From contig JAJEKV010000045.1 in NCBI GenBank assembly GCA_021234155.1, positions 1,697,474 through 1,761,473 of the forward strand: a stretch of 64,000 nucleotides of DNA. The letters are read 5' to 3'. Under the pieces are notes generated by a model that saw only the letters and a program-made list of their open reading frames with translations, did no database searches and was not told where the DNA came from. The position numbers were made by a program, and so were the translations under genes. This document shows positions 8,985-42,740 of this stretch, one piece after another. The first letter of the stretch is position 1. Every line of letters begins with the position of its first letter. This stretch comes from Isoetes taiwanensis. Lineage: Eukaryota; Streptophyta; Lycopodiopsida; Isoetales; Isoetaceae.

Positions 8985-9012
8985 CTAGGCTTCCATTGGG
9001 AGATTCGTTGCC

Positions 9013-10179
9013 ATGGCCAGAGAGAGAATGAAGAGAACTTGCGTTGTGAGAAGAGAAGCTTCTTTGGCAGCTGAAGAAGCTCTTCGATTGAAGAGGAAAA
9101 GAATGTTGAAGAACTCGCAGTATGAGGCGAAAAGAAGGAAGCTCCCTTCTCCAGAGTGGAACTTACTTCCTTTTGATCTTCAATTGAGAGTTTTAGCATG
9201 CCTCGAAGTTGACCATCTTTTTAGATCATGCTTGCTTGTTTGCAAACAGTGGAAAGATGCAATTTTGTCTTCACACTATTTTGCCAAGTGCCAATACAGG
9301 CACATGCAAAGGCACAATATGTGGGCTACACTATGGAAGAGATCTTATTCTAATGAAAAATCGAATTGGGGTCCTTACACAATACTGAATCTACCGCTTA
9401 AAAAATCCGAGTGGAAGCACTGCTCTGATCAAGGCATAGTCTGCATAAGGAACTGGTGCAAAGATGAGAAGTATATCGGAGTTGGGAATCCATTAAAGAA
9501 TAATTGGAAAGTGATTTCTGCTCCCTCTAAGGGATTTTATCCGTCTTGTATGAATGTGGATAGCTCAACATCACCAGTTTCGTTCAAGATAGTAGCTTTT
9601 TCATATGATGGGATGCCATCTATTATGCATACAGAAATATTTGATTCAAAAATCAATACTTGGAACAAGGGAAACACCCTTACCTTAGATGGCCCCTTTC
9701 GAGATAAACTTGAGACTACTTTGGTTAGTTTTTGTCGCTACCAAAAGGAAATAACCACATACAATTTTGAACATGATAGATGGAGTGTAAAAAGCTATGT
9801 TTCTCCAAATGATAATGCAACTGAACAAATTGTTCTTTGCGAGAAGAAGCCGATATTAATATCTTGTTTGGGACCCGCGATCATGCTTTGGAATGAGCAT
9901 TCATGTTGCAAGGGCATCATCAAGTGGGGTTTAATTACCAAACTTGACATCAAGACATTCTTGGAAAAACACAATCTCAAGGTTCAATGGAAGGAATCAA
10001 AATGTTCTAGAACATATTGCATGGGCCATGTTATCACAGTCATGGTACCCTTATTTGGGAAAAGGACGGGTTTGCTTAATTACAACATGAGAAAGGGTTG
10101 TTGGGAGCTTGAAGGACCAATGAAAGGTTGGTCTGGTGGCTTTGACATGAAATTTACTCCTAGCTTGATGACGGTTTGA
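9013..10179 (+). CDS. F-box/kelch-like protein
   Basis: An intact single-exon ORF of 388 codons with TGA stop. The N-terminal 44 residues are strongly basic (RLKRKR and KRRKL form a bipartite nuclear-signal-like patch). Residues 46-93 form an F-box: PEWNLLPFDLQLRVLACL, then the L-x-V-C-K-x-W core at about 74-80. F-box proteins bind SKP1 and recruit substrates to SCF E3 ubiquitin ligases. Residues about 110-388 are rich in W, G and Y/F and resemble plant F-box kelch/FBA C-terminal halves (CIRNWCKDEKYIGVGNPL, NTWNKG, and a terminal F-x-PSL tail), but canonical kelch repeats are weak. The ATG at 9013 lies in CCATGG, a good plant start context. The length is normal for the family. The gene stands alone among repeats; a broken copy is at 63301. 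The substrate is unknown. Confidence 0.85.
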   Translation: MARERMKRTCVVRREASLAAEEALRLKRKRMLKNSQYEAKRRKLPSPEWNLLPFDLQLRVLACLEVDHLFRSCLLVCKQWKDAILSSHYFAKCQYRHMQRHNMWATLWKRSYSNEKSNWGPYTILNLPLKKSEWKHCSDQGIVCIRNWCKDEKYIGVGNPLKNNWKVISAPSKGFYPSCMNVDSSTSPVSFKIVAFSYDGMPSIMHTEIFDSKINTWNKGNTLTLDGPFRDKLETTLVSFCRYQKEITTYNFEHDRWSVKSYVSPNDNATEQIVLCEKKPILISCLGPAIMLWNEHSCCKGIIKWGLITKLDIKTFLEKHNLKVQWKESKCSRTYCMGHVITVMVPLFGKRTGLLNYNMRKGCWELEGPMKGWSGGFDMKFTPSLMTV

Positions 10180-10769: not shown

Positions 10770-12048
10770 TGGCGCCTTCACGGCTAGGGCGGCCGCAGGG
10801 AAAGGGGCCGCCCCTAATCCTTGCTATCGGCACTGCAGTGGCTGCAAATTTCTTCTGTTTCCAGATCTGATGGCTAGCACAAGAGTTTTGGCATCTCGGT
10901 TTTTCTGATTCTGCCTCCATCTGCTTCCGTTTTCTGGTTTTCTTGGAGTTTCTTCATGGCGGCCTCTCCAGCCTTCTCAGATTATCCACTAACGTGGATC
11001 TTTACTCTGATGCTTCCGGTCTAGGTAAGCATTGTGTTTTTTCCATAGATCAAACAGAGATTAGTCTGGCCAGCAGCCCATTCGTTTCTTTCTTGCCCTT
11101 TCTTGAAAGGCATAAATTCTTTGGGGCTGGGCTGGACGTTGTTTCCTCTATTTCCTTTATGGATGCACACCGAAATGGCTCAGATTGCCTATAAGGTTGA
11201 GTAATTAAGATGCAGGGCTATGAGAGAAGATGCTTCAAATTTCTAGTTAATTGGCAGCTTTATTCTTTCCTCAGTTCTGTAATGCCAGAAGCCTTTCCCT
11301 TCCTCTTGCTCTTTCCTACTAGCGGAAAGGTGTAGAGTTGTTTCTTGAAAAAGAAGAAGAATAGATTAGCCTGACTCTTCAGATTTTTTGATGAGATCGG
11401 AACTAGGTCAGATTGCGGAGCTGGGGATCTTCAATGCAGGATGAGGCTTTTAATATTTTATTGGACTGTTTGAGATGCCGAGCTAGGGAATTTTTTTTGA
11501 GCAGGATGAAGTTTATATATATTTTGAGCCGGACTTTAGGGAGGAGTCTGGTAGCTGGGCTTTGGGGTCTAGTACAGGCTGACTGCTTCATATCCCGACA
11601 ATGCAGCATTTCTGATGGCTACATTCATTCTAGGCCGACTGCATATATCCTGACAATGCAGCATATTTCCTGGTACAATCAGTATTGATTAATTTGCAGA
11701 ATGGGTTATTTGGAGCTGTGTTAGCTTCCTTGAGCAATGCGGGAGATTGCTCATGTTTTCTTCATGCCTTTCTCTGTTCGTCTCTACTCTTGCAAGAGGT
11801 GGTTCATAGAGCATTCAAGGTATATTCATAGCTTGAGGAAAATTTATATTTGTCTCCTGTAGTATTCCTCTAGCTGGGAAGATGTTGATTCTGATCATGT
11901 AGTACTAGTTAGCTGGAAGAAGAGGTTGAGAAAAAATTATGAGTACCAAGCTTCAAATATTATATTTGATCTACAAGAGATCCTCTGTACTTCAAGGTTA
12001 TTTGATCCTTGTGGGACTTCCTATCTGAATATAAATTTATCTTACCTT

Positions 12049-12080
<32 letters not shown>
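10770..12080 (+). mobile_element. retroposed sequence with long poly(A) tail
   Basis: The block ends in an uninterrupted A run of about 30 bases (about 12051-12080), the hallmark of LINE-mediated retroposition on the plus strand. Its left part is G/C-rich (CGGCCGCAGGGAAAGG at about 10790) in contrast to the A/T-rich surroundings. Reading frames are broken; an internal duplication (CCGACAATGCAGCAT at about 11596 and CTGACAATGCAGCAT at about 11650) is seen. No reverse transcriptase was found, so it is either a 5'-truncated LINE 3' region, a SINE-like element or a processed mRNA. The start is an estimate from the composition change. Confidence 0.45.
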
Positions 12081-12082
<2 letters not shown>

Positions 12083-12930
12083 TCCAGGCCACTTGTTTTG
12101 CATGTAACGGAAAAGATACCAAGTCCATCTGGAAGCACTTGAGAAATATAACAGAAAAGATACCAAGCATCTGTATTTTCGTGGAAGCAGAAGAGATCAT
12201 GGACAGGCCACGAATTTGCATGTAACCGAAAAGATGCCGTCAGTACATTTGTTACAGATCTCAACAGCTGTAAAGAGGCAGCCGAACTGGAGTATCGCCA
12301 TGGATTTCGTGGCCATGCTTATTTCCGTAATCTGAGCTCAGAAGATGCCATTTTAGGTTACAAAAGGCAAGCAATTGTTTTTGTTAGATATACTCCATGT
12401 GGCCTTGACCACGCCTACATGCAATAATATTTATATGACATAGCGCATAAATGGGTTAAAGCATGCAATAGCGTCTCAATTAGCTTGTCTCCCCTGTCCC
12501 CCCCAAACTAGTTCGAAAAGTAGGTCGTCCCAACTAACTTCTTTTGCCACGTAGAACATTTTGAAAATTCACTGCGAAGAACCTCGCCAAAGATTCTATC
12601 CCGCCGGTGCTATCGAAGCCGGCCTCAAGCTTGTAAAATGAGGATGATCCCACGAATCAAGACTTACTGATGCGGCCATGCCAAAATCGTGAACCTAATA
12701 AGGTTTCTCAAATTCTTTTACAAAATTTCTTGCAAAGCAATGAAATGGACGAATTGTTAACGAATTGGAGCAACAGAAGATTTCAAGCCGCTTTCTTATT
12801 GCCAGGTTGGATATACTAGATAAACTTCGAGCATTTTTTTTTCAGATTGAGACCACCTTGTTGAAGCCATCCCACAAGGCCAAAGATATCAGTAAGCATC
12901 AATCCTTTCTCTTCATCTTCATAGTTAAAC
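12081..12930. other. no gene seen
   Basis: Short direct repeats occur near 12085-12235 (CCACTTGTTTTGCATGTAAC and CCACGAATTTGCATGTAAC, each followed by GAAAAGAT). The rest probably holds the 5' end of the transposon gene that begins near 12931; no terminal inverted repeat was identified. Confidence 0.35.
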
Positions 12931-15900
12931 ATGGGAGATGGGGATGCAAGCAAGTCAAAGGGGAAAAAGAAGAGAACAGCAGAGCAAGAGACCTTAAAAA
13001 AGAGAAGACAGAGGAAGCGAGAAATGAGGAAAACATGCTATTATGCAAGAATGTTCCAATGCCCGAGCAACACTAAAAAGCATAGAGCCTTGGCTAATAT
13101 TGTCTCGCCATTTATGAAGAATACTTCTTAAATGGACAATAAAAACTAAGAAAGAAATTTTGAGTGACTTCATAAAGGAAAAAGAAATCAAAGAATTTCT
13201 TAGTGATGAATTCAAGAATATGGGAGTTAAGAATCATTTGATTGGCAATATTAGAAAAAGCATTCAATCAATAAAAGCTTCTACAAGCATAGATTCCATG
13301 GCTGCAAAGAAAAATGTACTTGCAATGGCTATTGGCAAGGATTGCACAGGTCAAATTGTTAGTAAGAGAAGTTTGGGAAAAGTTTTGGGAGTCCATCCGA
13401 GAAATATTAAAATGGCAAGGAATAAACGTGAACAAATAGATATTGATAAAGGTGGATGGGTCTTTACAAGCGCATCCGTAAGGTTTGATTCAATTGGAGA
13501 TGATGTTATTGAGCTGATTCAGGAGTTTTGGGATCAAATACAAGGGTCTCGCCTAATGCGAAGGACGTGAGATATAAAAGATTGGCAAAGAATATTAAAC
13601 AAGAACATGCCACTCACTATTTGGAGGACACATGGTGTAATTCCCCTTCTCATTCTTTGAAGGAACTAAAATTATGGTTGGTAAGGTATTGTTAGTGGTG
13701 AATTGAGTTAGTGCTAGACAATGGTTACAAAAAGTTAGTTAAAGTTACGTGCTACAAATAAGTTAGTTCTAGTTGCGCTTGTGTTATAGCGAGGGTCAGT
13801 TAGTTAAAGTTGCAGGTCATGGCTAGTAGTCAGAGGTTACAGTTATAGGTACAGTTAGTTAAAGTTGTAGGTTACAGTCAGTTAGTTCAAGTTCCGTGTT
13901 ACAACGGTACAATACCGAGCTTGCAGCAGGTACAGGCCAGGTTACAAATGTCGTGGTCGTCCGATCACGCTTATAGTTAGAGGTGGAAGTTGTAGGTGAT
14001 AGATGTAGAGACAATAAATGCTTATAAGTAGATGCTAATAGTTTTAGTTGTCAGATCAATTCAAATCTTAGTCTTCAAACTTGAGCATCTTTGTCCACTA
14101 GTTATAGCTTTAATTAGGTTTTTCATTTGTGAGGTCTTTGTTGTATCCAACATACAGTTATGTAAGCTCACTACTCTTATTGTTGTGCAGTCAGAGCTGT
14201 TTCTTAAGTTCAAAGAGCAATATCCAGAGGTGCAGATCCGCCAAAGAGCTTTTGAAAAATTAAAGCCATGGTATGTCATGAAGTTGAAGCAATTCAACTC
14301 TTGTTGTTGCATACATCATGTGAGGCTACAAATGCTTTTGGATGGTTTTAATAAATTGAGGAACCAGCATGTGAATCCTTGCAATTGTGCATGTGAAGTA
14401 TGTGGAGCAGTAGAAGAAGAAGTTTGTGTCGCCAAGACAAAAAAGTATAAGACAACTACAGAGTTATGGCAGTCTATTCTTTGCCCAAGAGAGGAAAATC
14501 AAGCATTTCATAAAAAAGATTGCATATACAGGCTTTGTAGCACTTGTGGTATCTCTCAGTTGTCGATATGCCCACTAGAGTTATCAAATGAAGGATCTAT
14601 TAGTTGGGAGTACTGGGATTATGAGGAAGGTGTTAAGGATAAGAAAGGAAACCCAAAGAAGGTTCTAAAGCGCTTATGGAGAGAGACTGAACCACGAACT
14701 TTAATTCATAAATTGATTGAGAGGTTGGATAAATTTCCTTTGCATAGTTTCGTGCACAAGTGGCGTGCAAAGCAGTTCAAGGAGTTGTTGGAAAATCTTC
14801 CTCCGTGTATTCTTGTGTCAAGAGTGGACTTTTCGAGAATTTTTCTATTTGCAGAACCAAGTGCACCGTGATATTGGACTAGCATACGATTACCATCTTG
14901 GTGCATATTACGCACTTTGTAGACCCTATGTTATATATCCGATGATACAAAGCACGATATATTAATTTTTTTGTTCAAAGATGCATTTATGATGCATTAT
15001 GAGTTTATGAAACAACAAGGTATAGATCCGTGATAAGCACCGGGTCTTTTTCGTGATGGAGCAAACATCACAGGTTCAAAAGCAAAGAAGACCCTTCTAC
15101 TTTGTTGAAGGTATGCGTTGCCACAAAAATTGAGATGATGTGGAATTTTTTGGCTCAAACCATGGGAAGGGAGAGCATGATGGCAAAGCCGCTAATTAAA
15201 ACGGTGGCTTAGGGAATTGATGAAGAGAGTACAGTCCATAAAAATTGAAAATGCAATATAGTTAAAGTAGCCGGGGATGGTTTTTCGCCTAGTGCTCCAT
15301 CTTCTAGTTTGAAAAAAAACCAAGTGAGAAGATGGTTTTGGGAAGTGGTGGGGGTGAACAGAACAACCTTTGGGCCAGAGAATCGTGGAGGACACAAGGA
15401 ACATTCATTCTGTTCATGCATTCAATTTAGAATGCCCTACGCAATTGCATGTAAGACGTTTGTCTTGCTTTTGTGCAAATTGCTTTGATGCAGAATGGGA
15501 AAAATGCATGAACAAAGAATATGTAGACGATTGGGAACTTGTGATTATTCAACCAAGCAATGTTCTAACGGATGAATATGAGGAACGAAATCTCAAAGAA
15601 CAAGATTCTCCTCGAAGCTATCTACCGCTCTAAAAGATAGCATAGGAGTAGGCTTACAATTTTTTAAGTTGTCGCTCCAAAATATAATGAAGAGGGAGCA
15701 CTATTTTGGTTGGTGTGTTGTACAAAGACAGCGTATGTTGTTAAGGAAGACTTTGAGGTAAATGGGCAAATGTTTTATGCAGGAGAGGAGCTTCTTGAAG
15801 GTATTTATTATAAAAAGGCACCAAGATCACGTACAAGCTATATCTATTGTTCAGACGAGCCAAAAGCCATAGTCTACATAAGTCAAGTTTGTGCAATTAA

Positions 15901-16024
15901 ATTGGTCATGCCACAGGCAAAACATCGATTGAAGGGAAACCAGGTTGTATACACACTTAGTGAAGCTGATAGTGAGAAGATTTTAGACAATCTCCCCGAT
16001 GTTCTATCTGATGATGAAGACTAG
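12931..16024 (+). pseudogene. DDE-type transposase, unusual family, decayed
   Basis: Conserved blocks appear in order across several frames. N-terminal: a basic, DNA-binding-like stretch (12931-13131) and a helical domain (13160-13560). The frame then shifts to a TRVSPNAKDV block and ...YLEDTW before a clean phase-0 GT-AG intron (13681-14190). Exon 2 (14191 onward) carries KFKEQYPEVQIRQRAFEKLK, a Cys/His zinc-like module (CCCIHH, CNCACEVCG, CIYRLCSTCG), then the first catalytic Asp in VDFS (14827-14829), where a frameshift at about 14836 restores ENF. The second Asp is in DGAN (15055-15057) and the Glu in HGKGEHDG (15161-15184). The end holds CFCANCFDAEWEKC (15460-15515) and an acidic tail to 16021. 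At least three frameshifts and several stops make it inactive. I know this block order (DFSEN, DGAGSQ-K, HGKG-DG) from uncharacterised transposase-like proteins of invertebrates; I cannot name the superfamily. Confidence 0.7.
13681..14190 (+). other. phase-0 intron of the transposase gene
   Basis: The donor GTAAGG follows AAA TTA TGG TTG and the acceptor TTGTTGTGCAG precedes TCA GAG CTG; both flanking codon sets lie in the same phase and give a continuous conserved protein block. Inside are imperfect repeats of AGTTAGTTAAAGTT (about 13720-13890). Presence of the intron says this copy descends from a DNA transposon or host gene and not from a processed mRNA. Confidence 0.7.
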
Positions 16025-16479
16025 GTATCTGACTCTATCAGATTTGTCTTTTTTTTGGCTATGTACCATATTTCTGATTTATCAGATTTATCAGATTGTC
16101 CTGATTATCAATAAAGTCTTTGTCAATTGCATGTTATTTTGGAATAGTAAACTGGAATTTTAAATGCATGGTTCTGTTTAGGAGTTTAGGCTTGGAGGTA
16201 AACCTGCGGTAAACTCAGATAAACCGGTAAACCTCAGATAAACCCTGTTATGTCGATTATCGGTTGTACTAGACTTGCCAAGATCATCCGATTTGCTTGA
16301 GATCGTGAAACATGTATAAACCCTGTTATGTCGACATCGAGGTTGTACTAGACTTGCCAGACTTGTAGTGCACTTAGAGTTAGATCAGAAATCGAGATAC
16401 TTAGGAATTAAATATCCATCACAAAACATTCGACATACCGTCACAAATTTCCCCTTTTAAAAACAACATGGGTCGCCAC
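16025..16479. repeat. transposon 3' flank with ~72-bp duplication
   Basis: No gene. AACCCTGTTATGTCGA followed by GGTTGTACTAGACTTGCC occurs at about 16220-16278 and again at about 16318-16360, and TAAACC is repeated several times at 16198-16235. It may be the terminal region of the transposon above. Confidence 0.5.
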
Positions 16480-17400
16480 GTGACGCGCGGTTGGATCGGC
16501 ACATGGACCGCCACTTGGCTTGGGACATGGTGATGTGGCACATGTAGTGCCACATTAACTTACACTTAACATTAACATATTAACTTAAGATTAACATATT
16601 ACCCTAAATAACTAGAAAAAAAAAAAAAAAAACTTCACATGGATGAGATGCCACATGGACCGCCACATGGGCTAATGAGGTGCCATGCCACATGGACTAC
16701 TTTTACATGGACCGCCACTTGGACTAGGATGACTAGGATGTGGTGATGATGACTAGGATGGCATAACACGTGTTTGATGACTTGGCTCATTGAATGCTGA
16801 CATGGACTGTCACTTGGACTAACAAGTTAACTCAACAAGTTGTAAGTTAACTTATTTAAGTTAACCTATAAACTTACAACATAATGATTAACTTATAAAT
16901 TAACATATTAACCTTAATAACTACCGATAAAAAAAAAAAAAAAACTTTTACTTGTCCACATATACTTCCAAATGCACATGGACTCCACATGGACTGCTTA
17001 CATGGACTGCCACATGGGCTATTGAGATGCCATGCCACATGGACTACTTACATGGACCGCCACTTGGACTAGGATGACTAGGATGTGGTGATGATGACTA
17101 GGATGTGGTGATGATGACTAGGATGGCATAACACGTGTTTGATGACTTGGCTCATTGAATGCTGACATGGACTGTCACTTGGACTGCCACATGGACTAAC
17201 AAGTTAACTTAACAAGTTGTAAGTTAACTTATTTAAGTTAACTTATAAACTTACAACATAACATACAACATTAACATTAACTTGTACTAAACATTAACAT
17301 ATTAACTTAACATTAACATATTAACCTAAACATCTAGCCCTAAAAAAAAAAAAAAACAAATACTTGTCCACATGGCATCACGTGTATGATGACATGGCAT
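16480..17400. repeat. 310-410 bp tandem repeats with internal A tracts
   Basis: Two and a half head-to-tail units carry, in order, CCACATGGAC words, GGATGACTAGGATG, AACACGTGTTTGATGAC, a GTTAACTTA-rich palindromic stretch and an A tract. The A tracts lie at 16616-16632, 16929-16944 and 17342-17356, so the spacing is about 313 and 413 bases. The longer unit has an extra internal TGATGATGACTAGGATGTGG copy. No coding. Confidence 0.85.
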
Positions 17401-17599
17401 GATGATGTGGCACATGCATTTTGATAGATACACAAATTTGTTTAAAAATGTAACATTTTCTTCAAACAAATAATATGGCATATTAGAATTATGGGCACAT
17501 TAGAATTATGGCATATTAGCATATTAGAATATGGGCAAGAATATGTCGGGATATTTAGATCTAGGCTATGAAACCAAAAATTAATAAATCTATATAAGA

Positions 17600-18079
17600 A
17601 TGTACTATTATTGCATGGCTAGGGGGCCTCGGGTTTCGAGCCCTACATGCAACATTATGACCATAATTGGCCCTTTGATTGGACGCTTCCTTGCTCCTAT
17701 AAGAGAAGAACTTGTCCAGACTCGAGGCATTCCTTCATCCCGGCAAGCTCCCTCCTCTGAGATTTCAAGCGCCTATTTCCTATCTTCCTATCTTCCTATC
17801 TTCATGGCCATGCTTAAATATACTGCCAAAAAGCCCAAGGTTGAGGAAGAGTCCTCTTCTTCCTCACATCCGGGCATGGAAATGACTGTTGTTGCAAAAT
17901 TCTTTGCCCTGGAGGTGGTTCGAATGCAGGAACAAGGAGCCAAAGTCTCAGATAAAGTTCAGAAGTGGGTCGATCGCGGTTTGTCCCCACCGAAGAGCGC
18001 CTGCATAAAGCTGAATATGGAAGCTACCGGGATTCTCCTTGTTGTTGAACTGAAAATGCCCCCACCAGATTACTTCTAA
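17600..18079 (+). CDS. unrecognised ORF, 159 codons
   Basis: A plus-strand ORF with no recognised domain. A start at 17600 or more likely at the Met near 17806 (MAMLKYTAKKPKVEEE) would give either 159 or about 90 residues. The second half has a KKPKVEEE basic-acidic patch, a Ser run and a helical FFALEVVRMQEQG stretch, ending PPPDYF. The triple CTTCCTAT repeat at 17780-17803 within the frame and the surrounding repeats argue for caution; it might be a relic of a transposon ORF. Confidence 0.3.
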   Translation: MYYYCMARGPRVSSPTCNIMTIIGPLIGRFLAPIREELVQTRGIPSSRQAPSSEISSAYFLSSYLPIFMAMLKYTAKKPKVEEESSSSSHPGMEMTVVAKFFALEVVRMQEQGAKVSDKVQKWVDRGLSPPKSACIKLNMEATGILLVVELKMPPPDYF

Positions 18080-18440
18080 AGCTGAAAATCCTATGACACT
18101 TCTGAGTACTTAGTTTTTTATGTTATTTTATGTTATATCGGATATTAAGGATGCGCAGAATCGCTTTTTTTAAAGGTCAAGTTTTTGTGGAAAGGCCGAA
18201 GTTTATTGTAAAAGGCCAAGTTTTTTTCAGACAAGGTCTTCGTGGAACATGCTTTATCCTGTTAATATGACACTATAATACGCTTTGATGGTAATATGAC
18301 CGAATATGACATGTCAGATCGTTGATATGACAAGGTAATCTGAAATACGCTTCGGTTTTATCCAAATACAAGGTTTATGTTACATTGAAAAATTTTCTGG
18401 TTTTATCTCGAAATACAAGGTTTAGGTAACACGAAACTCG
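18080..18440. other. no gene seen
   Basis: A/T-rich sequence with short direct repeats (TACAAGGTTTA at about 18366 and 18412; AAGGCC(G/A)AAGTTT at about 18191 and 18213). Nothing coding. Confidence 0.4.
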
Positions 18441-18725
18441 TAATCGCAGACCATTTCAAAAGCATTTCAAACAAACCATTTGGAAGATAAGAACCAATTT
18501 CACAAACCATTTCAAAAGCACTTCAAACAATTCATTGCAAACTAAACTACCGCAAAACTAAACCATTGCAAACAAAAGCAATGCAAACTAAAGCATTGAA
18601 TAAACTATCGAATAAACTAGACCTGTGCAAAACTAAACCATTGCTAACTAAACCATTGCAAACTAAACCATTGCTAACTAAACCTCAGGCAAACTAAACC
18701 TTTGCAAACTAAACCATTCCACGTT
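18441..18725. repeat. 15-mer tandem repeat array
   Basis: The word ACTAAACCATTGCAA and close variants is repeated about a dozen times, loosest at the left (CAAACCATTT) and tightest at 18600-18720. It lies at the 3' side of the minus-strand FCP1-like pseudogene. Confidence 0.85.
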
Positions 18726-19147
18726 TAGGCTAAAGAAACCTAAGCAAAACAATTGAACCTCTTAAACAGTAGATCAAGATAGATCAAGGTCATGTTAGAA
18801 ATCTGAAGCCTTGTGTCACCAACGTGTACCATTAACGAGTAACGTAATGCTTCACTTAGTTTTTGGAAGAAGGAAACTAGTACCGCCGGGTTTGAAAAAG
18901 ATGTGAAAAGTTTCATGTGTGCGTAATGTTCACCGCAATCCATTTCCAAAAACTCCATAGACATGTGTATCCCAAAGAACCCAAAGAACATGAAGGCTTA
19001 TACACAACTTATCAAAGAACTCCCTCAAGGCATGTATTTTATTAATTCAACACAAGAGCCAAGACTTGGTCACTTATCTTGTGTGAGAAAATACAAAGAA
19101 CGATTATAATGATACAATTTCACTAAACAAAACCATATTGATGTCAA

Positions 19148-19836
19148 CGATATCCGTATTTCTTGAGAGTATCAATTGCTTTCTTCAAACCTTATCCGTA
19201 AAGTTAGTTAATGGATTGGCTTGAAGATACAGATTCCACATTCTCAGCTTCTAACAAGAGTTCCAAAACCATGGTCTTAGATGTTCGAATAGGAAGTCAC
19301 CATCTCTTCTCGATGGTTGATAAGTATTAGGGCATACCATTGTATGTGGATCGTTCTTAAAACCACGATGACGCCATATCATCGACTAGCAATGTATTTT
19401 TTGTCCATCCAACCTCCCTTTATTTCAGAATAAACTTTGCTCAACTCCTTCAACAAGACAGGTTTCCTTTCAACTTTGAATGTCAGATTTGTGCACTTAG
19501 TCAAGACCATGTAAACCGTAATTTTTCTCGAACAGCTCTTTCAAACATTTGATTCAGAATAAGATTAGTTGCAGTGCTGCTCAATGTTGTCCAAATGGCA
19601 ATCTTGAAGTGCTCCATGCACCACTCTAGAAGCTCCTTGGCTCTGGGGCGCAATACAACTATCTTTGTGTGATTAAGGTGCTTAAGTTCCCGCACCATCC
19701 ATGACACAACTTGGCAATGGCTCAGATTTTCAAATAGCTTCATCAACACTCCATCTAGCTCAAAAATCAAAAGCTTTTTATGCGACTTTATCCTTTTTGG
19801 TACATGGGGACTTGGAAGGACTGCCAAAAACTTCAC
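19148..19836 (-). pseudogene. FCP1-like HAD phosphatase domain, decayed
   Basis: On the minus strand the ORF 19836-19501 carries KKLLIFELDGVL, LRPRAKELLEWCMEHFK, IAIWTTLSSTATN and EKLRFTWS, the order of an FCP1/NIF (CTD small phosphatase-like) domain. After a stop at 19501-19503 the homology goes on: QCTNLTFKVE-type residues, KPVLLKELSKVY, the second acidic motif LVDD (about 19378-19390), then in another frame DPHTMVCPNTYQ, and finally GLKKAIDTLKKYGYR at about 19150-19195. The family signature DxDGT/V starts with the nucleophile Asp; here it is ELDG, so the nucleophile is replaced by Glu. With the stop and at least two frameshifts it is a pseudogene. It is the 3' end of the larger minus-strand gene that runs to about 22590. 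Confidence 0.75.
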
Positions 19837-20079
19837 CGCGTTTACTTTTTTCCTCGCAAAGCAATTAAAGCCCTTTTATTTCCTCGAAGAAAATGCTTTC
19901 AAATAAACAAACATAATCACTTCATACAAAAAAATAAAGAATTACCGTGTGAAAACAGATTCTTCAGATTGTGATCGATGAGATGTCTCTTTGTTTGTCT
20001 TCACAATTGGACTAAATGATGAAAATGGAAGACTCGATGGGTTTCAATGGCCTTATTATCCCTCGCTACACCATCAAAC

Positions 20080-20345
20080 TTTGATTCGACAAAGTAGCCT
20101 TCCCATTGTCAAGAAGCGGATTGCCCACATTCGGTTTCTTTCCAAAAGGTGATGAAGCGTGTCACTCATATCTTTCCCATCTTGCGGTCTCTTTAACCCT
20201 ACAAGCATTACAAAAATTGATAATATGTAATAACAAATATTTTCCCCTCCGCAGAAAAGCATGTATTACCGGCTTAAATCATCGCCGCCTTTGGCTCATT
20301 CTCTTCATGAAAAATTAATTCTTTGTTGTTACCTTCAACTTCTAC
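20080..20345 (-). pseudogene. linker exons of the zinc-finger/FCP1 gene
   Basis: Two exon-like frames read on the minus strand. One (about 20330-20260) contains GTTVEVEGNNKELIFHEE; the other (about 20203-20076) runs LKRPQDGKDMSDTLHHLLER and ends ...MGRLLCRIKV. Acceptor- and donor-like sites flank them (TTGTAG and GGTAATAC). No family is recognised. Their order and strand put them between the zinc-binding module and the phosphatase domain. Confidence 0.4.
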
Positions 20346-20539
20346 AGTAGTACCTATCTTTGATGAGTGGCCTTGAATAGCTAGATCATACATAAAAAAA
20401 AAAAAAAAAAAAAATTGTCATGAGTGGCCTTGAATATCTAGATAAAACATAAATTAAAAAACTAGCAATCAAAAGACATGAATCTTGGAATCTAGGAACC
20501 AACAATCATTACTAGCAATCTAGGAATGACTTCACTTAC

Positions 20540-20705
20540 CATCATTGTTGTCAATTTGTTCGTCTTCAGAAACATCATTGATCACATGCACATCCTCTAG
20601 AAGTTTTAAAGCTCGCTCAAACGTCTAGGCACAAGCTTATGCTCTTTGATAAATGATAAGGATGCTGGAGTGGAGCCAATGCCTTTTGAAGGCAAATTTT
20701 CTGTT
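20540..20705 (-). pseudogene. exon with consensus GTAAGT donor
   Basis: On the minus strand the frame KEHKLVPR is followed, after a one-base shift, by ERALKLLEDVHVINDVSEDE and QIDNNDG and then the donor GTAAGTGAAG (20533-20539). The consensus splice site and acidic, protein-like composition support a real exon of the zinc-finger/FCP1 gene, broken by an indel. Confidence 0.5.
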
Positions 20706-20814
20706 CCAATATCAAACCAGCAATAATTAAAAACATACTATGAAGATGAAAAAAAAAATATGCATATAGACCAACCATTCGAATATGCTATCATATTAAT
20801 CTTGGTCCATGATG

Positions 20815-21225
20815 CTTCTTTAAACCAAGAAAAAACAACCAATTGTCTGACATGCTATGTCCACAACCGCTATCGCAACACATCGTAGTGCCACTACACA
20901 AGAAAAACTATGTTAGATAATCCTATGATTTAAAAATTATAGATGGGAAGATGCTACCGAAATGCGCTTAGGCAAAGCATGTGACATGATATGCATGCTT
21001 GCACTCAACAATTATGACTGGTAGAAGCATCTCACTAGTATTGAGTGATTTTTCACAAAATGGGCATGTTTCCTTCAAATTGATGCTTGAATATTCATTT
21101 TCGCTAGCACCAAGAACAAGCGTTTGTGGCAAAGAGGGACTTTCAAATGGTCGGCAGACATAATTTGGCGAAGCCGCCAAAAGCCTCCAAAAGAAGGTGG
21201 CCTCAAGTTGTTCAACTCGCCCCAA
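20815..21225 (-). pseudogene. RING-like Cys/His zinc-binding module
   Basis: The minus-strand ORF from 21225 ends CPFCEKSL...IIVECKHAYHVTCFA, i.e. C-x2-C-x(n)-C-x-H-x3-H-x2-C, a RING/PHD-like half. An in-frame TAA at about 20973 sits where a Gln codon (CAA) would continue AHF; then a donor (GGTAGC) and an intron of about 75 bases lead, at an acceptor TTGTGTAG, to an exon reading TTMCCDSGCGHSMSDNWLFF, which supplies the remaining Cys pairs (CC...C-G-C). A zinc-binding fold is thus likely once spliced. The nonsense codon is a single C-to-T type change. Upstream residues (VNLEICRILSWGELNNL in another frame) suggest a further shift. The function is unknown; a ubiquitin-ligase role would be a guess. 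Confidence 0.55.
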
Positions 21226-21619
21226 CTCAAGATTCTACAAATTTCGAGATTGACAAGTCTTTTTGATGCTTGACTCAAAGCTAATCGCACCTCTTCAAGT
21301 TCCACGATTTGAAGGTCAATGACTGCCTCAACACCTTCCTTTTGTGCACTTGATAGTCGTGGTTATCAAATCACGTATACTTTTTATTTCAATTGGTCAA
21401 ACGAACTGTTTAACTTCTAAATCTTTCATATTTTCTCTTATGTCAAAGCACTTATCATCATGCGATTTGCGATTCAAGTCGGGCTTTTGTGACATCATGT
21501 TCGTGATTTGCAATCCATTCCTTCAAGATCCTTGACATTTCTATAATGCAAGAAGATAATTAGATTGAAAACATAACTAATTTAATGAAACTTCAGATTG
21601 AATTAGATAACAAACATAA

Positions 21620-22045
21620 CTTCAAGACAGACTTGCATTGCACTTAGACTTAGAATTAGACTTACACTTAGACGTAATGACCGACTTAGACCCACGACAG
21701 ACTTAGATGACTTAGACAGGCTGACTTAGATGCTGATTTAGACTGACTTAGACTTACACTAACTTAGACTAAGACATACTTAGACAGACTTACACCTAGA
21801 CTTAGATAGACTTAGACTGACTTAGACTTAGACAGAATTAGACTAGACCCGACTTAGACTTGGGACAGACTTGACGTGCATTAGACCCACTGCACCATGC
21901 ACTTAGACATTGCAGTTAGGCCTGACTTTAGACTTACAATGCACTTAGACGCACTAGACTAATTTAGACTTAGACTGCACTTAGAGTTAGACGCAGACTT
22001 AGACTTAGATTAAGACTTAATTAGACTTACACTTAAAATCAGACT
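21620..22045. repeat. GACTTA hexamer-type tandem repeat
   Basis: About 60 imperfect copies of GACTTA, with TTAGAC and ACTTACACTTA variants, fill an apparent intron of the minus-strand gene. It is a degenerate microsatellite with no coding value. Confidence 0.9.
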
Positions 22046-22093
22046 AAGAATTACTATGACAATGGAGCTAAGAGAATAAATGAATATAAAAAA

Positions 22094-22589
22094 CTAGAGT
22101 TGAATAATACCTGGATTTTCTGTTGCATAATTGGCATCATTCGTCACGTTGGAGCTACCAAGGTTTTGTGAAGTTAACTTATGAGGAACCAGCTGCAAAT
22201 CCGGGAGACAAACCCAATCGGAGGAGTAACGTTTATCCGTGCCACTTTCTAGCTCATCATCCACATTGTTTGCAAGTGCTCTACTTTTTGAAGCTGATTT
22301 TGCATGCTCATAGAAGCTCATCCGGTCTATTTCACGCCCATTACAATGTAAATGTAAAATGCCATTTCCAAAGTGCTTGGGGTACCTCGCCTCCTAAAAC
22401 CTTGGTTCGGATCATGTATTTTTTGTATAATGACAAGAATTCTTCCTTCTTGTTTTCCTTTAATAATTTGAACCAGAATAAGCCTTTCCATTTACCTTTC
22501 GGACCCCACACATCTTCCGAGATCTCATTATCATCAACATGCCTTTCCGATCTATACAACTCTTTATAGGTAAAGCCTTTGTCACTCAA
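22094..22589 (-). pseudogene. 5' exons of the zinc-finger/FCP1 gene
   Basis: Two overlapping minus-strand frames look like one protein with a shift. The first (22589-22341) has SEDVWGPKGKWKGLFWFKLL, then KENKKEEFLSLYKKYMIR; the second (from about 22360 to 22094) has GREIDRMSFYEHAKSAS and ends with an Asn-rich tail before a donor-like site. The aromatic and lysine-rich W-G-P-K-G-K-W-K block is distinctive but not recognised. Their place at the 5' side of the zinc module supports a single long gene of about 3.4 kb. Confidence 0.4.
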
Positions 22590-22599
22590 ATCGGAATCG

Positions 22600-23648
22600 C
22601 ATGATTTGGAACCGCCTATGAGATCACAAGTCGATGACTGTTAATGCAACTTTACATTAGATTTCTGACATCATAAAATACAATTGCAATATAAGGACAA
22701 AAGAAATACTATGGTCTAAGAGGTGCATCTATTGCCTATCTATAAAAGACTCCATCTATTGCCTATCACAACAAATTATCAAAACTGACCTGTCTCCTGC
22801 CTCAGAAATCAGCATCACAACCTTAAGGGTTCAGGCTTACCATGATTAAAGCCTTACATCTATCACATAAAATCTAAAGGAAGAAATAAAAATGTAGGAA
22901 GTTTTATACGATGCCATTTTGTCAAATTACTTAGTATTGCATCTTCCACAAAGAATGAAACTACCTGTAACATACATGATGGCAAAACAGAAAATTGAGA
23001 TGAGTACATACTTTTCTTCAAGTATTTGATTTGGTGGAGAGCTAGAGAGGCCGAAATGTTCAATATATAACATAACATTATAACATGAAATACAATGGCA
23101 ATATAAGAAGGACAAATAACAAGAAATATTAATTGGTCTAAAGGTTCTGTTGAGAAGCATGGAGATGTATGCAAACGTTGCAAAAGCAAGAAATCAAAAT
23201 GGTAGAGTAGAGCTAACAAAAGGTCATATAAATTCAGAGCAAATATACCTGCAAATAAAGAAATTAATTCAGAGCTTTATACGATGCCATTTTGTCATGG
23301 CGAAAGAGAAACCTGAGAAGCGTGCATACCTTGCAACAAAGTACAGTTATGAAGAGAGCTAGAAAGACCGAAATGAGGTAAACCGTGCAGTGGAGGAGAG
23401 CTAGAGAGTCCGCAACGATTCCCTCCCATTCTCGTTTCTTGCTATTTCCTCCCGAACCGAATCCCTCCTTTTCCCCTTAATTTTCGCAAAATTCAAAATA
23501 CAACCTAACAAACCCACTACATTTTTAACTATTTTTGTAGTTAGAAATTTGACTTTTTTGAGACACTATATTGTGCTTTGACCCAAATAAATGTTGCATA
23601 GCTGCCCTTGTGTGATGGGCTCTAAACACTAGAATAAAGTAATATTCT
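22600..23648. other. no supported gene
   Basis: Some duplication is visible: TTTATACGATGCCATTTTGTCA occurs at about 22902 and 23277 (in part), and GAGCTAGAGAG recurs at 23039 and 23398. A/T-rich sequence just left of the CACTA terminus may include the promoter of the minus-strand pseudogene. Confidence 0.4.
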
Positions 23649-23659
23649 CACTACAAGAG

Positions 23660-23945
23660 AATGCCTGTTCTGCGTCAGAAAATGCGTTAGAAAAGTTTCG
23701 TAATTTTTTTCAATAAACACCTGACGAATAATCTGACGAATATTCTGACGCAAAATCTGACGAAAAATTGTGACGAATAATATGACGAAAAATGTGACGA
23801 AAACTATGACGATACATCTGACGCTTAATCTGACGTAAAATATGATGAATATTTCTGATGGTTATTCTGACGAGTAGTATGACGATAGAATGACGATAAT
23901 TCTGACGATTTTTTCGTCAGTATATTCATTAGAATGTTCGTCAGA
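23660..23945. repeat. CACTA subterminal repeat array
   Basis: Around 20 copies of a 10-13 base unit with a fixed TGACG core (TCTGACGAATAA, TGTGACGAAAA, TATGACGATA). In CACTA elements such arrays bind the element-encoded TNPA-like protein. The inner end flips orientation. Confidence 0.9.
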
Positions 23946-25876: not shown

Positions 25877-26985
25877 TTATTGTGCTACATATTGAGGTTC
25901 AACATTTTCTTCCTCTTCAATATAATCTTCATGTGTTGGCGAGAGCATTCGTGAGCTCAAATTTAGTTCGTTGCTTGATCTCTCTTGAGCATCATATTCT
26001 TCATTGCTTGGTCTTGCTTGATCTTCATAATCTTCTCCAATATGTGGCTCCACAATTTCCATTTTCTCCTCATGCTCCTCGTCTCCCTCTTGGATGGTTG
26101 TATTGTAAACATGTCGCCGTGATGTTGGTTCCGTCAGGATTACCATCCACCATTCATTTTTTTGAGGATTGACATGGAAGAAAACTTGTTGAACATGATG
26201 TGGATATATATACGGCTCACTTAAATCTACTAAGACGTGTGTGGAGTCTGCTTCAAAAAACCCGGATGGATGTGGTCTCATTGTTTGATTTCTTCCACGG
26301 TATAGAGGTTTTAACCACTGCCTTTAGTATTGTTTGTCGAAATGATCGAAAGTCCACATCAATGATATCGACAATAACCCCAACATATTCAATTTCTCCA
26401 TCAATGGGGTTAACATCTCGAACACTTGCTTGACTCTTTTGGTTAAATGAGGCAATGATTCCGGAATCAAAAGTAATGCGAGCTTTGTCAATGCTATGGA
26501 CTCGAAAATGTTGACCATATGCCCACATTGAACTATGGAACCTAGCCTACAAATTTGATTTAAATATCAATAAGGAACACTTATGAATATAAATGAAATA
26601 TACATATTAGCAACAACATATAGGAACTTACTGATTTATTACAACAAAATGCAATGTTGAAGTCATCCTGTTGAATTTTCTCTCCCTTATCTTCAGCTTC
26701 TCTGAGCTTTTTTGTCAACCACCAATTGGGCGGAGAATCAGGTAGAGGCATTAGTTCTGGAGGGTATTGTATGGCTCTTCTATGTCCGCGACGATTCCTT
26801 GTTGCATATGCTTTTCTGTCGATATCTCTTTGTGCCTTTTCAACTTTATATAATTCCACCCACCTAACAAGGCTATCGATGTTGTTCATAACAAATTTAT
26901 TGATACCTTCAAACATATCATCACTTAACCTCCGTTGTTTACCCAAACGCCACATATGCTCCAACATGCCATGTGGGCTCCAACA
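25877..26985 (-). pseudogene. CACTA transposase C-terminal region (DUF4216-like)
   Basis: Minus-strand frames in order: 26985-26630 (FEGINKFVMNNIDSLVRWVE, PPNWWLTKKLREAEDKG), an intron-like gap, then 26528-26290 (YGQHFRVHSIDKAR, IEYVGVIVDIIDVDF), and after a one-base shift 26281-25877 (PYIYPHHVQQVFFHVNP, NEWWMVIL, then an acidic tail). The V-G-V-I-x-D-I-I-x-x-D-F and VQQVFF-x-x-x-P-x-x-x-x-WW-V blocks are those of the DUF4216 domain found behind the TNP2 transposase in plant CACTA elements. The catalytic TNP2 part is missing; the gene is cut at its 5' side by the foldback element beginning at about 26957. The missing part was not found beyond that element. Confidence 0.75.
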
Positions 26986-27968
26986 TGACAAGGTGGCTCA
27001 AACATGCCATCTAGGCTCCAACATGCCAAGGTGGCTCAAACATGCTACGTGGACTCCAACATGCCAATGGGCTCCAACATGCCAAGGTGGCTCAAACATG
27101 CCATGCGGGCTCCAACATGTTACATGCCACCTAAGCTCCAACATGCCAAGGTGGTTCAAACATGCCACCTAGGCTCCAACATGCCAAGGTGGTTTCAAAC
27201 ATGCCACCTAGGCTCCAACATGCCAAGGTGGTTTCAAACATGCCACCTTGGCTCCAACATGCCAAGGTGGCTCAAACATGCCACCTAGGCTCCAACATGC
27301 CAAGGTGGCTCAAACATACCACTCGGCTCAAACATGCCAAGGTAGCTCAAACATGCCACGCGGGTCTCCAAAGATGCCACCTAGGGCTCAAACATGCCAC
27401 GGAGCTCCACATGCCACCTAGGCTCCAACATGCCAAGGTGGCTCAAACATGCCATGCGAACTCAAACATGCCATGTGGGCTCCAACATGCCAAGGTGGCT
27501 CAAACATGCCATGTGCTCCAACATGTTACATGCCACCCGGCTCCAACATGCCAAGGTGGCTCAAACATGCCAAGGTGGATCAAACCCTGGGGACCAAGCT
27601 ATAATAGCCATTTTTGCAACGAAAAGAAACACGAACCCCTACATGGCAAAGATTCCACGCCCACCTCTTTGGGCCAATTGACTACTTAACGAAGTTGGAC
27701 ATGAGCTACTTTGGCTTGGAGAAGGGTGGTCTTTCGCCCACAAAACTTGGTCCCTAGGGTAATGTCGACGTTTTTGAGTCCATTGGCGAGTTAGTTCACG
27801 CCCGAGTGGGAGAGTTGCCCGCAGTGGAGTGGCCGTGGAGCCTTTGGGAGAGGACCTTTGGGGCGAACTGCTTCCGGAAGGTTTTAAGGGTCCATCTTCT
27901 GGTGTCAACACCCTCCCTCTACCTGATGACATTATATAAGATCCTGGTCGAATCTGACTAGGGTATGG

Positions 27969-39490: not shown

Positions 39491-42400
39491 ATAATAATAA
39501 CAATAATTGATTGATTCACACTTCGAGAGACCCAAAGGGCCATGAAGCGAATGAATTTACATCATCATATCTCAAAGTTTGAGTAAACAATTTCTATGTA
39601 GTTCGAGCTCTTTGAGATAACTGCCTAGTTTTTGTGGGTTCAACTGGTGTAAGAAGTAATAATCAGTATAAGCTATCTTATGTCTCTCTCTTATTTCTTT
39701 ATAACAGCTGCAGTTTAAGAATACGTGTATCTCATCTTCTATGGCATCTGTCTCACACAACGCATATTTTCCTCTCTTCCCTTGGGATCCTCTCGCCACC
39801 CATTGCCTCCACTCGAGCCGCTGAGATCCAGCCAGATCATGCTACAATTCTCCTGATACCCTCCCCGATATTGGGGGCATAAGTAACTTTGAGCTGTATA
39901 CATTAATAGAGGATTTAATTCCTTCCTGTAAAACTCAATTCTAGATCCCTACGTCTGACAAATTTTGTCCACATATTTCATTTGTACCAGATCCCTGATG
40001 GCTATATCAGTATCGGGCCAATCCCTTTCCTCAATCCCCCCATCTCCCATTCTACAACATCATGGTACCATCCTTTGTTTCAGATTCTCTGCCGCAAAGA
40101 AGATGTGAGGGCGCAGGGCTTCCGCACCTTCAGTCTAACCATGAAATTAAGGGCTAAGCATAAGCCCTCAGCTTCTAGGGGCAGCAGTCCCGTCTCAGCC
40201 AATAGAATTTGGTAAGGAATTTGATGCCTAACTTCTAGCTCCTCCTATAAGAAACTCTTCATCACACATTCAATTTTCCTCCACTACCTTGCATAAATAG
40301 CTGGACCCCATATTTGGACACCATAGAGAAGAACTGTTTGCACCAGAGTTTTGAACAACATGCATCTCAGATGCCAATCCTGAAGATCGATTCTCAAGCA
40401 GGCCAACATCCGATACATGGCTCGCCACACCAGATTTTTTTTTATGCATCCTTTCCAAGAGTAGTTTGAACAAACTTCCAAGCCCAGATATTTATATGTC
40501 TCAACAACTTCGACTTGAATCCCTTTATAATTGAATTCCGGTCTCTGCATTGTACCTATAATCATAATCTTTATTTTGGACAAATTCACTGACATGCCTT
40601 TTCCGTCGCAGAAAGTGGCCAAGTTATCCAGATGATCTTGTAACCCATTTGCATCCTCCGAAATCAAAACGATATCATCTGCATACAACAAAAGCTGGAT
40701 TACGTAACCCAAACGTACCCGCTTTCACCTCTATCTCAACCATCGCTCCAAATTGCCCATAAACACCTCAATAAGGTCGGGACAACGGACAAATTTTTTG
40801 TTTCACTGTCAGATAGTGCCGGAAATTTCTTCAGTGGATATCAACCGCCAACTTTGCAATAACTTCTTCATAGAGACGCACCATCGCACCTTTAAGGAAT
40901 CTGAACCCCAAGTTTTTCAAGCCGCCTCACAAACCGCCTCCGTGGAGACCGAAGCCAAACGCTTTTGCAAAATCAATGAAAGCCAAAAACAGTTTTTTCC
41001 TCGGAGCTTTTGCTCTTTCTATCAAGCTCCTAAGCGTGAGTATGTGGTCTAAGGTATTATGCCTTTTTCTGAAACCAGCCTGCCCTATTGCTCGTTTATC
41101 CATAGTTTCTAACCAGCTACTCAACTTGGCCTCCAATATCCCCCCAAACAGTTTTGCAAACACACTCCCTATCATAATTGTCCGGTAATTACTCACATTT
41201 GATCTATCCCCTGATTTATAAACAGGCACTATCTTGCAATATTTCCATTCTTTGGGCATGCCATCCTTTGACGCCTGATTTAAGAGATCAGTGAGAATTG
41301 GTACCAAGCTTTCCCCTCCCCATTTCAATAACTCCGCTGTGATCCCCTGCAAATCCCGTGCTTTCCCATTTGCCATCTTCTTTAGCTGATTTTCGACATC
41401 CTCTACTGTGAACAAGTTATCATTCACAGTGTGGAGAGCCATAGAGCCTGCATCAGGTACCAAATATAGTTTCCGGGCCAGCTGTAACATATCAGAGATA
41501 TCCAACGACACACTATCTTTCTTTCCTTTAAGATGTGACCAGAATGATTTCGGGTTATGCTCGAGCTGATAGACCAGTTTAGATTGCATATTCTTGTAAT
41601 AATCTCTTTTCTTTTTCCAAAGCAACTTCTTATACCAGCTCGGTTTGATTCTACAATCTTTGCCAAGCATGACCCTTGCCTGCACACACTCGTCATCCCA
41701 CCATGAGTTACACGAGCCTTTCCTTCTCTGCTTAGTCACTCCAAGAGAAGTCCTTGCAGCTAATAGCAATATCTCCAAAAGCATTTGGGCATCCCCGCTT
41801 TATACTACCACCGCTTATAGTCTTCCAAGAGACTTGACAAGCATTCTCAGATACTCATCTCAAGCTTCCGTGGATTCAATTTGATTTTCTGCTGCAAGTT
41901 ATGAGCTGGTGCTTTCCTGCTGTCTGTCTGAAACTTGAGTTCAAACCACAAGGGTGATGATCACTCTCTGGAAGCTTGTCCAACACCTGAAAGTTTGAGA
42001 TCAAATCTGATTTATCAGAAGCAAGCAGATAATCTATTGTACTTTCTCCATTCTAGGAGAAGCATGTCGAACCACTTGATGCTGGGAACCGTGGGATTCC
42101 ATTCATGATTTTAAGATCACAGCAACTACCAAGTTCAAGTAAAAAATTACCCATATTGTTTTTAGTCTTGTCTTGTGATTGTGTCTCGTATGCCGGATCC
42201 TTTAGTTCTTGTAACAGGTGATCTCCATCCTTGAGGTAAGAGATTGTTTGCTGCCCTCCCGTTCGCGCATTGAAATCTCCAACAATGAATATCTCTCCCC
42301 TGTCCTGCAATTCCAGTCCTTGCATGCTTAGTTCATGTAAAGGCCGATCTCTAAATCCAACATGATCATACAAAGGCATGTTTAATGGAGCATAATAGTA

Positions 42401-42740
42401 GACTCCAACAAAAGCCATTTTGTCGCTTCCTTGTATTTTAATCCACATATGTTGCTGGTTGGCATGCTTCAATTCTACTGATACATTAAGTGTGAGATGA
42501 GATCGCACATATATGCCAATTCCTCCGTATCCTTTCACCATGCCTGTGTCCTTGAAATTCCACACTCAGTCCAAGATTTTGTACCCTTGTAGATGTGGTA
42601 GACCATTCAGTTGGTGCTCCCAGGTTTCACAAAAATTAGATCAGCTCTATTCCACAAATCTGTTGTAGCTTGTACCTTAGCCTTGTTGATTCCATGCACA
42701 TTCCAGACCAGGACCCTCAGGGTCTTGTGTGTACACCGCC
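39491..42740 (-). mobile_element. LINE (non-LTR retrotransposon), 5'-truncated, inserted in the SET-like gene
   Basis: On the minus strand from 42720: an AP-endonuclease start RVLVWNVHGINKAK, then GYGGIGIYVRS and IFIVGDFNART (about 42270-42290), a region with WWDDECV (41690), and reverse transcriptase blocks WKYCKIVPVYKSGDRSNVSN, GQAGFRK, the catalytic A block FIDFAKAF (about 40960) and YADDIVLI (about 40685). After these come MSVNLSK, YKYLGL, LLYGVQIWG and a C-terminal Cys/His motif CALCETD...DEIHVFLNC (39750-39720). Frameshifts and the lost segment between motifs A and C (40927-40712) make it inactive. The 3' tail is not poly(A) but a TTATTGTTATTATT repeat (39488-39510 region), as in LINE clades with simple-repeat tails. 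The endonuclease starts right at the 5' border, so the element is 5'-truncated. Confidence 0.85.

Follow-up and report, generated by a model that had tools for sequence, protein, structure and literature searches.

Evidence for an approximately 11-kb, two-gene DNA transposon family with terminal inverted repeats in the lycophyte Isoetes taiwanensis

Sola transposons are described as encoding a DDD transposase, making 4-bp target duplications, measuring mostly 2-9 kb (some more than 15 kb) and carrying terminal inverted repeats (TIRs) from 11 bp upwards, and they have been reported from the moss Physcomitrella (PMC10741241). Sola2 is characterized by TIRs of 12-13 bp and AT-rich 4-bp duplications (PMC3627910), and a 2023 review lists both Sola and Ginger for plants (PMC10741241). 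For Mutator, duplications of 7-12 bp are given (PMC10741241), another paper giving a joint range of 4-10 bp for IS256 and MuDR. Some fungal DNA transposons carry a TET/JBP dioxygenase gene that, in the opinion of the authors, helps them to escape silencing (PMC12730594). Here we analyse 64,000 nucleotides of the lycophyte Isoetes taiwanensis (the window; contig JAJEKV010000045.1, forward strand, 1,697,474 to 1,761,473), which very probably contain one copy of a family of TIR DNA transposons of about 11 kb with two genes, called gene 1 and gene 2 below. The family has defined ends and target duplications, comprises many copies that fall into diverged subfamilies, and carries two convergent genes under selection.

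The whole transposon copy occupies positions 12453-23584 of the window (plus strand; 11,132 bp), with ends determined by comparison of copies and by a 4-bp duplication at the borders. On the left, the match starts at 12446-12453 and the flanks are unlike in ten of the 14 copies compared; the match of L009 continues into the left flank of the window copy, and those of L006, L008 and L014 start further inside. The right end, 23584, comes from the comparison of copies, including pieces of a sister subfamily. The TIRs are about 26 bp long, imperfect and of the type GGGTYAAAGCA..., giving ends GGGT..ACCC: the left one, GGGTTAAAGCATGCAATAGCGTCTCAA, lies at 12453-12479 (plus strand) and the right one, with the reverse complement GGGTCAAAGCACAATATAGTGTCTCAA, at 23558-23584 (minus strand). 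They are bordered by the unstranded duplication AAAT at 12449-12452 and 23585-23588. Searching the genome (1,658,258,908 bases in 1110 pieces) with the left-end pattern gave 20 matches and with the right-end pattern 55, some of the latter being left ends of the sister subfamily; each reversed pattern gave 0. An exact 4-bp duplication was found in 13 of 16 distinct insertions with both flanks read, namely the window copy, C907, C1059, C1096, C1053, C1033, C1046, C1049, C208, C919, C1036, C299 (sister subfamily) and C23, and the sequences duplicated include AAAT, GGAT, CTTT, AGAG and GCCA. In this count C1067, which has the flanks of C1049, was taken together with it as one insertion, and C963 was left out, its flanks being those of the window copy on both sides and its match extending beyond 23584. 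The pairing of ends is less certain in C208, C919, C1026 and C1036, where they lie 32-82 kb apart; two left ends are present in C1036, and the outer one was taken. The C23 element, of 11.3 kb, has ends of the same type, flanked by the duplication GCCA, and its transposase is 46% identical to that of copy L002. The family therefore has the inverted ends and the fixed-length target duplication by which cut-and-paste DNA transposons are recognized.

An earlier note, made from the window sequence, had described a transposase gene of an HGKGEHDG family at 12931-16024 and proposed a search of the host genome for intact copies with TIRs and duplications. Intact gene-1 copies, TIRs and 4-bp pairs were all found, and the inverted ends and duplications agree with a transposase-like gene of a DNA transposon, the transposase itself being predicted from sequence. 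The extent given in that note covers gene 1, but the mobile unit is the larger one above; an element end near 16024 was considered and dropped, since the DNA beyond that point aligns collinearly across these copies, and partly so in the sister subfamily.

Two pairs of copies have common flanks, window copy/C963 (window 11539-12452 and 23585-23700; L009 and L019) and C1049/C1067, and represent either segmental duplication or uncollapsed haplotypes. The left flank of the window copy is 89.7% identical to that of L009, with differences again often at CG/CHG sites. Degenerate tandem-like repeats, composed of ACATGGACCGCCACWTGG units and TTAACTTA arrays and variable between copies, lie between both genes at 16466-17380. 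A plus-strand open reading frame (ORF) at 17588-18079 was rejected as an extra gene, having no Pfam match and no aligned stretch in the two sister-subfamily pieces compared.

Gene 1 is on the plus strand and has two exons, both broken in the window copy. Exon 1 (12931-13629) starts MGDGDASKSKGKKKR and was delimited by tblastn with exon 1 of L002 and by ORFs; exon 2 (14191-16024), identified by tblastn, genome search and an alignment of eight reading frames (A1), contains Cys/His modules, the proposed DD(E/D) core and a C-terminal CFC..C..W..C cluster. The intron (plus strand, 13638-14190, start approximate) was placed by junction comparison and L002. It is real and in phase 0 (..LEDTQ/gt..ag/SELFLKF..), and its donor CAG/GT is kept in nine of the 15 copies with the junction read (L002-L004, L006-L008 and L011-L013). 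The donor is altered in the other six (the window copy, L001, L005, L009, L010 and L014), so the preserved intron of the earlier note describes the family better than the window copy. In L002 both exons are open, and exon 2, with 674 codons between stops, encodes VVDFAENF, FSDGAASQFK, NHGKGEHDG and the C-terminal cysteines in that order in a single frame. The exon-2 protein of L002 (619 residues) aligns by tblastn to the window over residues 1-477 (13 stops) and 501-615 (one stop).

The scattered blocks in the window are not due to chance, since L002 encodes the same series and the family is large. A genome search with exon 2 gave at least 85 matches at at least 71 loci (71 of 12,900 candidates scored), with amino acid identities to L002 from 97%, the query itself apart, down to 46%. 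The DNA of window 14500-15300 gave at least 41 matches, a lower bound, as 40 of 589 candidates were scored. Between subfamilies, in pairs whose synonymous change is unsaturated, dN/dS is 0.07-0.13 in exon 2, and it is 0.22-0.24 in exon 1; these ratios indicate that gene 1 is under purifying selection between subfamilies. The lineage is old, as synonymous sites have reached saturation in many pairs of subfamilies. In the 46% subfamily, two loci share 99.0% identity across 2009 bases, which points to recent movement or duplicated sequence.

The blocks named in the earlier note were recovered at the same bases. The proposed first catalytic Asp (D213 of L002 exon 2) is the GAC codon at 14827-14829 in VDFS, and the second (D298) is the GAT codon at 15055-15057 in DGAN. 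The codons E-H-D of HGKGEHDG lie at 15173-15181, where E337 (GAG, 15173-15175) or D339 would be the third catalytic residue, and the C-terminal block CFCANCFDAEWEKC is within the frame 15358-15630; all are on the plus strand. D213, D298, E337 and D339 are invariant in all eight rows of A1, with 85 residues from D213 to D298 and 39 from D298 to E337. Further acids, e.g. E216, D263, D264 and D268, are equally invariant, so invariance alone cannot pick out the triad; the Glu proposed earlier as catalytic is conserved throughout, but D339 is too, and D-D-E and D-D-D are both possible. Averaged residue propensities predict three strands, a helix, a strand and, after HGKGEHDG, another helix; D213 closes the first strand and D298 follows the fourth, an order that weakly suggests an RNase H core.

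Database comparisons of gene 1 gave no match above chance. Exon 2 has no Pfam match at E up to 5 and no NCBIfam match at E up to 0.1, and the weak NCBIfam matches of exon 1 are far under the cut-offs. Against PDB, the single sequence gave eight matches (best E 0.062) and the profile one (E 0.33), which is chance level, and PHROGs gave only E values of 0.26 and 0.19. None of the 21 pattern-matching stretches in viral contigs and the 130 in prokaryote genomes was confirmed as a relative. Unannotated invertebrate proteins share the block order, with VDFxENx, DGxxSQF and HGKGxxDG; a degenerate pattern for this animal motif had 0 matches in viral contigs.

The earlier note had set the gene apart from the usual plant superfamilies, which agrees with the results in Pfam, NCBIfam, PHROG and PDB, but its list omitted Sola and Ginger. 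The sequence features would fit a DDE-type TIR transposon family with an accessory gene, closest on paper, by description, to Sola. The element shares with the described Sola transposons the 4-bp duplications, inverted ends in the stated range, a size within the range and an occurrence in a seed-free plant, as in the moss (PMC10741241, PMC3627910), and D339 would complete a DDD triad. The likeness, however, is one of description, the duplications here are not all AT-rich (GGAT, AGAG, GCCA), and a gene with RING and NIF parts such as gene 2 goes unmentioned in the cited passages on Sola (PMC10741241, PMC3627910). We regard membership of Sola, probably as a new subgroup with an acquired accessory gene, as a tentative but serious alternative to a separate superfamily.

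In MuDR, mudrA and mudrB are convergent, and the Isoetes element likewise combines a transposase with a convergent second gene. Mutator (MULE) was nevertheless rejected: its duplications are of 7-12 bp (PMC10741241), its TIRs often long and its transposase marked by a MULE domain, in contrast to the 4-bp duplications, TIRs of about 26 bp and lack of a Pfam match here. In addition, the C/DxxH signature before the third acid (PMC9587614) is absent from seven of the eight A1 rows, which read GSxH at that position (CSNH in L038). No row of A1 has C(2)C between D298 and E337. Canonical PIF/Harbinger elements have a DDE_Tnp_4-type domain and 3-bp duplications, and were rejected on the duplication length and the lack of a Pfam match for exon 2. 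Harbinger relatives with 0-4-bp duplications have been reported. The TTAA duplication of Kolobok and piggyBac differs from AAAT, GGAT, CTTT and AGAG, which excludes only their typical forms, as duplications of 3-5 bp are given for the KolobokP lineage. The duplication length also speaks against hAT and against Tc1/mariner, in which the duplication is TA (PMC10741241). Ginger, with TG..CA ends, TIRs of 40-270 bp and a Gypsy-like integrase (PMC10741241), was rejected in view of the GGGT..ACCC ends, the shorter TIRs and the lack of a Pfam match.

The window copy has many stops and frame shifts, and had been read as a relic whose frames were broken by mutation. The distribution of the differences makes this doubtful. 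Over window 12453-16450, 67% of the 51 indel events relative to L002 lie no more than one base from a CG/CHG site, as do 62% of transversions and 61% of transitions, whereas CG/CHG-associated positions make up 20% of the sequence. Other copies show the same for indels (59% in L007, 67% in L009 and 77% in L010), less so L003 (47% of 15). In exon 2 of the window copy, 14 of 17 frame-changing indels are at CG/CHG sites, a number reached in 0 of 10,000 random draws; this excess stems from CHG (12 of 17) and not from CG alone (two of 17), and two control motifs have no excess. Between two subfamilies compared over exon 2, in contrast, only 25% of transversions and 29% of transitions are at such sites. 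Deamination of methylated cytosine yields transitions but produces neither indels nor transversions; base-callers make errors at methylated CHG, and repeats are difficult to polish using short reads. The published Isoetes taiwanensis assembly is described as built from nanopore reads, with polishing by racon and pilon (PMC8566536). Taken together, the concentration of indels and transversions at CG/CHG sites, the nanopore assembly and the difficulty of polishing repeats indicate that base-calling error at methylated cytosines is probably responsible for much of the apparent decay, and that the window copy may be less decayed than its sequence reads. The excess of transitions at CHG sites could also come from deamination, as expected in a true relic, and 33% of the 51 indel events lie off CG/CHG sites. 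A true relic nevertheless appears rather unlikely.

Gene 2 is encoded on the minus strand, convergent with gene 1, and had been missed in the earlier note. Three exons, all broken in the window copy, were located by tblastn: a NIF/FCP1-like exon (19147-19898, minus strand), also found by Pfam NIF, a coiled-coil and RING-like exon (20959-21559, minus strand), for which the RING and BRE1 models are below the Pfam cut-off, and an N-terminal exon without known domain (22109-22651, minus strand), which in the open version of L055 has no Pfam match. Pfam NIF matches the window fragment 19501-19875 at 6.6e-7, above the Pfam cut-off. The open exon of L055 resembles the NIF/FCP1-like phosphatases (PF03031) at 5.6e-10, over profile positions 1-159 of 160. 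In active NIF/FCP1 phosphatases motif I is DxD. Unlike these, the copies read have ELD, ELE or DFN (ExD, ExE or DxN), and L058 has YYN (YxN), never DxD; gene 2 is thus probably no working phosphatase, and a binding role would be expected. Between subfamilies, dN/dS is 0.22-0.32 in the RING exon, 0.29-0.41 in the NIF exon and 0.17-0.22 in the N-terminal exon.

In all likelihood, gene 2 is an integral component of the transposon. For the pairing analysis, 149 of 150 NIF matches were used, the 150 being the best of 4619 candidates. A NIF copy is present within 15 kb of 31 of the 71 listed transposase loci (within 8 kb in 28), and in all 31 it is downstream and convergent, none having only another orientation; 1000 shifts of the NIF positions gave a mean of 0.18 and a maximum of 2. 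Moreover, three of four NIF loci (37-39% identity) without a listed transposase nearby have a convergent gene-1 relative (L076, L077 and L078; the fourth is L058, described below), and C23, of the 46% subfamily, has counterparts of the RING exon and, at 30% identity, of the NIF exon in convergent position. Gene 2 could instead be a passenger, a host gene that was captured and plays no part in transposition, as fragments of captured genes are common in plant DNA transposons. The synonymous divergence (dS) of the NIF exon (L052, L053, L055 and L018) between two subfamilies is 0.24-0.31, against 0.67-1.28 in the other exons compared, a pattern that resembles an exchange of the NIF exon between subfamilies. 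We consider a passenger improbable, in view of the constant convergent arrangement, the counterparts in the 46% subfamily and the joint retention of several exons with dN/dS of 0.17-0.41.

It is very improbable that gene 1 represents host genes mobilized by other elements and no transposase, for although neither a family model nor a fold confirms a transposase, gene 1 has a fixed place in a unit with its own ends and duplications in several subfamilies, and its invariant acids have an order and spacing suiting DDE enzymes.

Several observations weigh against the two-gene transposon. Searches of Pfam, NCBIfam, PHROGs and PDB gave gene 1 no relative with an assigned function, and the label "transposase" depends on the order of the motifs, on selection and on the mobility of the element. 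In two insertions (C1037 and C525) the flanks carry no matching duplication, and in C1026 three of four bases agree. Between close copies dN/dS is higher, up to 1.25 in exon 1 and 0.26-0.86 in gene 2, values to be expected from decay or from errors. Among the best 150 of the 4619 NIF candidates, no copy is found within 15 kb of 40 of the 71 transposase loci, and L058 (C907:7121500-7131400) has gene 2 with no gene 1 within 9.9 kb. In C23, Pfam NIF fails to reach the NIF-like exon and the RING model gives only 0.23. The gene-2 relative of L058 (NIF 3.2e-14) adjoins a Gypsy-like gag ORF; a neighbouring ORF resembled an Ulp1-type protease by eye, and this is not claimed, as Pfam gave nothing.

Regarding the mechanism of the proposed two-gene transposon, gene 1 would act as a DD(E/D) transposase that recognizes the GGGTYAAAGCA ends, probably via its Cys/His modules, excises the element and inserts it into new target DNA by way of a cut staggered by 4 bp. 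Gene 2 would be an accessory protein helping in trans, perhaps via ubiquitin or polymerase-tail contacts, an idea suggested by the BRE1-like, RING-like and NIF-like parts, which all recall transcription elongation. Our best guess is a ubiquitin ligase or adaptor, rather than a phosphatase, that contacts the host transcription or chromatin machinery and keeps the element expressed. A function as silencing antagonist is conceivable, if on the unlikely side. The fungal TET/JBP transposons are similar in being large TIR elements with an accessory gene, and differ in the accessory protein, the transposases and the host kingdom (PMC12730594). A RING and NIF accessory gene in such a transposon was not found described in the open-licence full text of PubMed Central, a collection outside which most subscription papers and Repbase Reports fall. 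We put forward only tentatively the broader proposal of a new two-component system: an undescribed plant superfamily, old and possibly active, that regularly carries a convergent RING and pseudo-phosphatase protein and evades silencing via host transcription or chromatin.

If this interpretation is true, there is in a lycophyte a large lineage of transposons that would probably go unclassified in standard plant annotation, because the transposase reached none of the curated models searched and the NIF and RING genes could count as host genes. The repeatedly kept accessory gene makes it testable whether parts resembling ubiquitin ligases and RNA-polymerase-tail phosphatases are recruited by plant transposons to counter silencing. 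In practice, the methylation-context pattern warns that methylated transposons in nanopore plant assemblies can seem dead when they are not.

Other features were observed in the window. An open frame of 396 codons with an F-box domain (Pfam 5.7e-5) at 8989-10179 (plus strand) is probably a host gene near the left border of the transposon. Frames at 40284-42565 and 57609-58040 (both minus strand) resemble, by eye, fragments of LINE reverse transcriptase and endonuclease. Finally, long frames of a short tandem peptide repeat of the LQHAKVAQTCHLGSNMPRW type, a coding-like minisatellite, occupy 26675-27689.

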